DNA from: Candidatus Melainabacteria bacterium RIFCSPHIGHO2_02_FULL_34_12
GTDB lineage: Bacteria; Cyanobacteriota; Vampirovibrionia; 2-02-FULL-35-15
DNA length: 64,000 nucleotides
NCBI GenBank assembly: GCA_001784555.1
Contig: MFRM01000020.1
Span: forward strand, 24,000-87,999
Reading direction: 5' to 3'
A program made the translations under genes and the position numbers. The notes beneath the pieces were generated by a model. That model was not told where the DNA came from. It made no database searches and worked only from the letters and a program-made list of their open reading frames with translations. Each line of letters opens with the position of its first letter. Positions within the stretch are counted from its first letter, which is position 1. Shown here one piece after another: positions 50,588-59,578 of the stretch.

Positions 50588-50601
50588 ATGCAATTTTTAA
50601 T

Positions 50602-50631
50602 CGTAGGGACATGCCGCGGCATGTCCCTACG
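50602..50631. repeat. Perfect 30-bp palindrome, GTAGGGAC family
   Basis: Two 15-bp arms centred on CCGCGG (left arm reads CGTAGGGACATGCCG) between paralogue 3 and polA. No T run follows, so it is a repeat rather than a standard terminator. Confidence 0.85.
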
Positions 50632-50648
50632 GTGTAAAATAAACCTGC

Positions 50649-53504: not shown

Positions 53505-53566
53505 GGACGAACTGATAATGGGGTGATACAGTGAATCAAGTATATTTTCAGATAAATTATTCTGCG

Positions 53567-53670
53567 TTTTTCCACTGTGGGTCCTGTCGCCTGCAGGTAC
53601 CCTCCAGACTTTCGTCACAGAGTTCCTCAGTCTGGACGCCTCCCTTTCGGCGTCACCCACAGTGGAAAAA
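53567..53670 (-). repeat. Structured multi-hairpin element, copy A
   Basis: 104 nt between polA and thiL, read on the minus strand. Outer stem TTTTTCCACTGTGGGT with ACCCACAGTGGAAAAA (16 bp, perfect). Inside: hairpin GACGCC...GGCGTC, hairpin CAGACT...AGTCTG with a purine-rich loop starting GAGGAAC, and a right part GAGGGTACCTGCAGG...ACAGG. Copy B at 59474 has the same plan with compensating stem changes. No coding frame is evident. Confidence 0.88.
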
Positions 53671-53711
53671 ACTAAATTAAAAAACTTAGTTGATTAAATA
53701 CTAAAATAAAA

Positions 53712-56381: not shown

Positions 56382-56465
56382 GCCGAAGTGGTGAAATTGG
56401 CAAACACACTACGTTCAGGGCGTAGCGGGCGCAAGCCCTTGCGGGTTCAACTCCCGCCTTTGGCA
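56382..56465 (+). tRNA. tRNA-Leu (anticodon CAG)
   Basis: 84 nt class II tRNA. Acceptor GCCGAAG pairs with CTTTGGC, the anticodon arm is CTACG-TTCAGGG-CGTAG with CAG in the loop, a long variable arm follows (GCGGGCGCAAGCCCTT region), and the T arm GCGGG-TTCAACT-CCCGC is perfect. The CCA end is not encoded, consistent with a CCA-adding enzyme gene in this window. Confidence 0.95.
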
Positions 56466-59399: not shown

Positions 59400-59473
59400 A
59401 AATTAGCTGTTAACTTTTAGCAGAACAAAATAAATATATCATATTAATATTCTGTCAGGTAGTTTACTCAGTA

Positions 59474-59578
59474 CTCATTCATTGTGGGTGGCACCGAAAA
59501 GGGAGGCGTCCAGCCCGAGGAACCCTATGACGAAGGGCTGGAGGGTACCTGCAGGTGACAGGACCCACAGTGAATGAG
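59474..59578 (+). repeat. Structured multi-hairpin element, copy B
   Basis: 105 nt between the prfB start and the acylase stop, opposite in orientation to copy A. Outer stem CTCATTCATTGTGGGT with ACCCACAGTGAATGAG (16 bp, one G-T). Inside: GGCACC...GGCGTC, CAGCCC...GGGCTG with a loop starting GAGGAAC and ending GACGAA, and GAGGGTACCTGCAGG...ACAGG. Stem sequences differ from copy A by paired changes while loops are conserved. Confidence 0.88.

Follow-up and report, generated by a model that had tools for sequence, protein, structure and literature searches.

Position and fold of the element

The window, that is, the whole stretch of 64,000 nucleotides analysed here, contains a compact palindromic element (copy A) at 53567-53670, flanked on one side by polA and on the other side by a gene with an AIR-synthase-related N-terminal domain (PF00586), which is probably thiL. 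A related element (copy B) is located in opposite orientation at 59474-59578 between an unnamed open reading frame and a penicillin-amidase-like gene. The following features were assigned:

53536-53565, minus strand: decayed opposite end of the family-1 MITE of copy A (flank comparison)
53567-53578, unstranded: one side of the outer arm of copy A, pairing with 53659-53670 (sequence, folding)
53579-53658, minus (conserved) strand: core of copy A (GGGTGACGCC...GGCGACAGGACCC), 80 nt (sequence; hits of models R1 and R2 at 53575-53662, minus strand)
53590-53601, minus strand: GGTACCTGCAGG, 3' side of an internal loop in the core (exact search; alignment A1)
53659-53670, unstranded: other side of the outer arm of copy A (sequence, folding)
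53671-53705, minus strand: decayed terminal inverted repeat (TIR) of a family-1 MITE (TAGTATTTAATCAACTAAG...), outside copy A (oriented flanks compared with intact copies L006-L010)
59445-59473, plus strand: decayed left end of a family-1 MITE, outside copy B (flanks compared with L009)
59474-59485, unstranded: left outer arm of copy B (sequence)
59486-59566, plus strand: core of copy B, 81 nt (sequence; hits of models R1 and R2 at 59482-59570, plus strand)
59567-59578, unstranded: right outer arm of copy B, pairing with 59474-59485 (sequence)

An earlier note had described copy A as a 104-nt element with a perfect 16-bp outer stem, and this description is exact: 53567-53582 pairs with 53655-53670. 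Folding of 53557-53680 yielded -48.5 kcal/mol for the plus strand (z = -6.7) and -56.1 kcal/mol for the minus strand (z = -7.2), and none of 200 shuffled sequences folded equally well. Instead of hairpins placed side by side, the better fold is a single long hairpin of the minus strand with conserved purine-rich internal loops. The segment GGTACCTGCAGG, noted as invariant, has exactly two matches in the window, one in each copy, at 53590-53601 (minus strand) and 59544-59555 (plus strand). Copy B shares the fold of copy A, as had been claimed; the outer stems differ in sequence and retain their pairing, and the middle stem reads CAGACT/AGTCTG in copy A and CAGCCC/GGGCTG in copy B, which confirms compensating double changes at two base pairs.

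A comparison with Rfam for a known riboswitch or other RNA class, suggested in the earlier note, gave no match. The only Rfam match in the window is a tRNA gene at 56382-56465; nothing credible was found at copy A up to E = 10, and at eight other loci weak matches were obtained, all of them below gathering scores and rejected as chance. The core family is absent from Rfam. Furthermore, a 24-nt inverted repeat without a loop (GTAGGGACATGCCG/CGGCATGTCCCTAC) is located at 50593-50640 of the window, directly upstream of polA; it starts with GTAG, resembling a GTAG-type REP.

Copies in the Melainabacteria genome

The two copies had been regarded as a pair, and this view did not hold. A sequence search of the 2.1-Mb Melainabacteria assembly (G000) revealed 24 well-aligned copies and several fragments, about 25-30 in total. 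Oriented and aligned, these copies have a common core consisting of GGGTGRCGCC GGAAGGGAGGNGTCC, a hairpin and GGAGGGTNACCTGNAGGCGRCAGGACCC. In young copies the core is central in inverted-repeat MITEs, most of which are elements of about 169 bp with the TIR CTAGTACANNGTCAA and of uniform length. A second type of end, GGGTGTGTAAAG, is accompanied by 9-bp direct repeats, e.g., TTGATGGTT at L011 and TCTATTTAG at L012; these 9-bp target-site duplications were detected at L011, L012, and L015 and for MITE carriers only. The families in this genome have the TIRs and target-site duplications of MITEs; core-only copies within genes do not. Judged by their flanks, copies A and B can be assigned to the first (169-bp) kind, with decayed ends.

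In four copies of this genome (L017, L018, L028, L029) and in one of G006 (L032), the core is interrupted by other small palindromes (TCCGCCAAAGGACGG...TCTGGCGGA and others), several of them placed at the core's palindrome CCTG-CAGG. Some are found at contig ends, which suggests that the interrupting palindromes are high-copy repeats. The apical loop of the copy at L013 (1501-1607) contains a 7-bp tandem duplication (CTCTGTG).

Structure of the core and covariation

The conserved unit is the core GGGUGRCRCC...GGYGRCAGGACCC of about 80-90 nt, which in copy A is read from the minus strand; the outer arms on both sides of it vary between sites. All lineages follow the same plan: arms ending in GGGU/ACCC (end of P1), an asymmetric loop GR/RCAGG, the 4-bp stem CRCC/GGYG, usually GNA/GNA, and a variable hairpin. 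In most lineages the variable hairpin carries a second motif, SCGSAR...GAGSAC, which is nearly invariant and lies outside the search pattern. The S-S pair of this motif covaries, being C-G in 10 and G-C in 6 of 16 cross-phylum sequences.

Covariation had been named as a check, and it exceeded every one of 500 shuffles and every slid control both in the own family and across phyla. Among the 16 cross-phylum sequences 96.9% of cells were paired, whereas shuffles gave 84.7% and slid controls about 34-51%; in the own family the values were 91.5% and 84.3%, with 34 double-changed cells as compared to 12, all these counts including related copies that are not phylogenetically independent. The purines flanking P2 exchange jointly, as a non-canonical pair (GA 97, AG 55, GG 4, AA 1, related copies included), and the A.G/G.A exchange was also observed between otherwise near-identical copies within G392. 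Templated (template-switch) palindrome repair gives Watson-Crick pairs and therefore does not account for this exchange. At a variable pair of P2, G-U occurred 31 times and A-C never; this fits folding of the GGGUG strand, with about four lineages behind it. A reading of the GR/RCAGG loop as a kink-turn was rejected on inspection, since it would make the second tandem pair G.G and leave the purine exchange unexplained.

The outer arms are palindromic and locus-specific, and longer than expected by chance, with at least five consecutive pairs at 36 of 135 distinct sites as compared to 3.8 when right arms were exchanged. The earlier note had concluded that a folded single strand is under selection. 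This conclusion is sustained by covariation over many independent copies; pairing of the outer stem alone is weaker evidence, because here the stem belongs to the inverted repeats of MITEs and elsewhere the arms are locus-specific. Orthologous copies with flanks 92-96% alike mostly show changes on one side, so that long-term constraint on each copy is unsupported; an alignment of L098 gave an orthologous pair whose arms changed yet stayed paired.

Distribution across bacteria

A pattern search through one genome per species matched at least 110 stretches, nearly all of which represent the core; the reversed pattern gave no match. The pattern fixes most bases of P1 and P2, and constancy of distant matches at these positions is therefore by construction. 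Lineages among the matches listed include Melainabacteria, Omnitrophota, Acidimicrobiia, Saccharibacteria, Daviesbacteria, Kerfeldbacteria, Deltaproteobacteria, Dormibacterota, Myxococcales, and others. Within the class, carriers among 382 genomes were limited to members of the same family. In many genomes the core is repeated; a deltaproteobacterium has at least 45 copies, and a genome of Acidimicrobiia has 22.

The covariance model R2 contains no Melainabacteria, its 16 sequences having been taken from other phyla. It recovered copy A at E = 1.3e-9 and copy B at E = 2.7e-7, and among 285 Omnitrophota genomes it matched 48. Three pattern matches, L108 (Cellulomonas), L111 (Phycisphaerales), and L146 (Pseudonocardiales), have no outer stem and were discarded as chance; R2 did not match L108 or L146 and scored L111 at E = 0.29 only. 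Viral contigs did not match the core pattern, plasmids did not match copy A, and a literature search with the core sequence returned chance primer matches only.

Ends and nesting

Two further types of end surround the core, CTGTTCACCT in G005 and TTCAGTCTTGGG in the deltaproteobacterium with at least 45 copies. The inverted repeats around the core are thus of at least four unrelated types, and the core also occurs without such ends. Conversely, the GGGTGTGTAAAG ends hold the core in G000, G001, G005, and G006, and in G010 they hold a different palindrome, GTCATTGCGAG...CTCGCAATGAC (L222, L226, L233, L236, L239, L245, L247). By its CGTC-type start (for the type see PMC3733652) the latter may be read as a CGTC-REP; a literature search with the GTCATTGCGAG repeat yielded no relevant paper. 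The possibility raised in the earlier note that the element is the end of a known IS was answered by the same observations: the core is central, sits between different transposon ends, and is not the terminal sequence of one IS. At L199 (5549-5631) a core is nested within the hairpin of another core; from this and from the foreign palindromes interrupting cores in the Melainabacteria genome it follows that palindromes nest at each other's centres, be it through insertion at these points or through arms growing around them.

Copies within genes

Several conserved genes contain the core and still have an open reading frame, namely, rsmA, uvrD (two sites), the genes for a 2-oxoacid acyltransferase and for an HI0933-like flavoprotein, and furthermore polA, a pseudouridine synthase gene, and a methyltransferase gene; this list favours open frames and thus does not give the rate of frame breakage. 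At the site of the 13-residue linker present in four relatives, the rsmA gene of L099 has 90 additional nt, corresponding to the 88-nt core plus 2 nt, and the arms lie within sequence of native length. For uvrD, L106 is without the insert. In the HI0933-type flavoprotein gene the insert comprises 105 nt, i.e., the core and about 17 nt of arms, and relatives without the insert exist. Copies within genes are present in both orientations.

Rickettsia palindromic elements (RPEs) and other protein-coding palindromes, hairpin repeats of about 100-150 bp, likewise occur in spacers and, without closing the frame, in conserved genes, among them genes for repair and for rRNA/tRNA modification (PMC10969869, PMC3733652). 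By description, the core resembles them in its presence in spacers and in conserved genes where the frame stays open and orthologues are free of the insert. However, RPEs were described from Rickettsia, whereas the core is spread over many phyla and has a defined two-module fold.

Origin of the core

Copies A and B probably are old and belong to a family of palindromic, non-autonomous mobile elements that extends across phyla. We infer that mobility caused the dispersal and that the strand is selected during the mobile cycle. On this view the GGGUG strand, folded as a single strand, would spread or be recognised while spreading, and new copies would settle in spacers, in the middle of other palindromes and MITEs and, where this is tolerated, within open reading frames. 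In the Melainabacteria genome the core may additionally be a passive passenger of inverted-repeat MITEs moved by other transposases. A further-reaching version, which we put forward tentatively, is that the core itself is mobile, a folded single strand that is recognised by undescribed machinery, spreads between phyla without TIR transposases or RAYTs, inserts preferentially at palindrome centres, and is copied into protein sequences.

The core is best read as a new variety of dispersed palindromic repeat, like REPs and RPEs and without REP tags or a need for RAYTs. It would then join the GTAG and CGTC REPs as another superfamily of bacterial palindromic repeats that spans phyla. The conserved internal loops of the core offer a handle on what binds or moves such elements, a question standing since RPEs were described, and cores within genes would add peptides to essential proteins of phyla that have been little studied. 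The covariance model can now be used to annotate core copies.

Alternatively, the core might be a functional RNA, i.e., a cis-regulatory, terminator-like, or processing element, kept for its action in transcripts and spread only secondarily. The strong fold, the G-U bias at the variable P2 pair, and the state of the window copies, which have decayed MITE ends yet perfectly paired stems and a conserved core, agree with this idea. However, orientation relative to neighbouring genes shows no clear preference (same 16, opposite 27, convergent 18, divergent 10), transcription in the polA-thiL direction at copy A would give the complementary strand, and the core is neither linked to a single gene class nor represented in Rfam. 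We regard such a function as improbable. Since neighbour direction is not clearly preferred and copies within genes run both ways, selection on the strand during spreading is favoured over a role in local transcripts.

It is slightly less probable still that the hairpin is the inner inverted repeat of an ordinary MITE, with the pairing as a by-product of TIR symmetry or template-switch repair. Young copies in the Melainabacteria genome do resemble MITEs, most of them being 169-bp TIR elements of uniform length and one family having 9-bp target-site duplications; in addition, the arms are palindromic and locus-specific, and those in rsmA lie within native-length sequence. Unlike an ordinary MITE, however, the core is common to MITEs with unrelated ends and is found outside MITEs as well, its purine-purine exchange is incompatible with templated repair, and its asymmetric internal loops and second motif are conserved across phyla.

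Integron attC sites are also folded single strands, with short conserved stems, spacers, and a variable tip, and in these respects they are similar to the core. The core differs in its ends, GGGTGR and RCAGGACCC as compared to RYYYAAC/GTTRRRY of attC, and in its dispersed copies, whereas attC sites stand in cassette arrays.

REP superfamilies (GTAG, CGTC) are 20-40 bp palindromes with an unpaired tag that occur across phyla in genes and spacers (Di Nocera 2013, PMC3733652). The core shares with REPs the palindromic, dispersed, intergenic and intragenic occurrence, the G-T-paired strand, and the wide phylum range (PMC3733652), and the CGTC-type palindromes of G010 occupy the same GGGTGTGTAAAG MITE ends. 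Unlike REPs, it measures 60-100 nt and has conserved purine-rich internal loops. It is very unlikely to be a REP/REPIN of the RAYT-mobilised kind: neither the copies of G000 nor those from other phyla bear GTAG, CGTC, or another constant tag at one foot or the other, and Y1 transposases (PF01797) are absent from seven host genomes, some with 13-25 copies (G000, G005, G382, G390, G391, G399, G402; draft assemblies), so that RAYT dependence was rejected as far as these drafts go.

In G386 (L251, L255, L258, L260), variants of the core were observed that have the same ends and contain one more internal hairpin, about 50 nt long, between them. In Saccharibacteria, L122 contains two copies in the same direction (993-1066 and 1497-1570), 500 bp apart, each followed by a TATAAT-like sequence.
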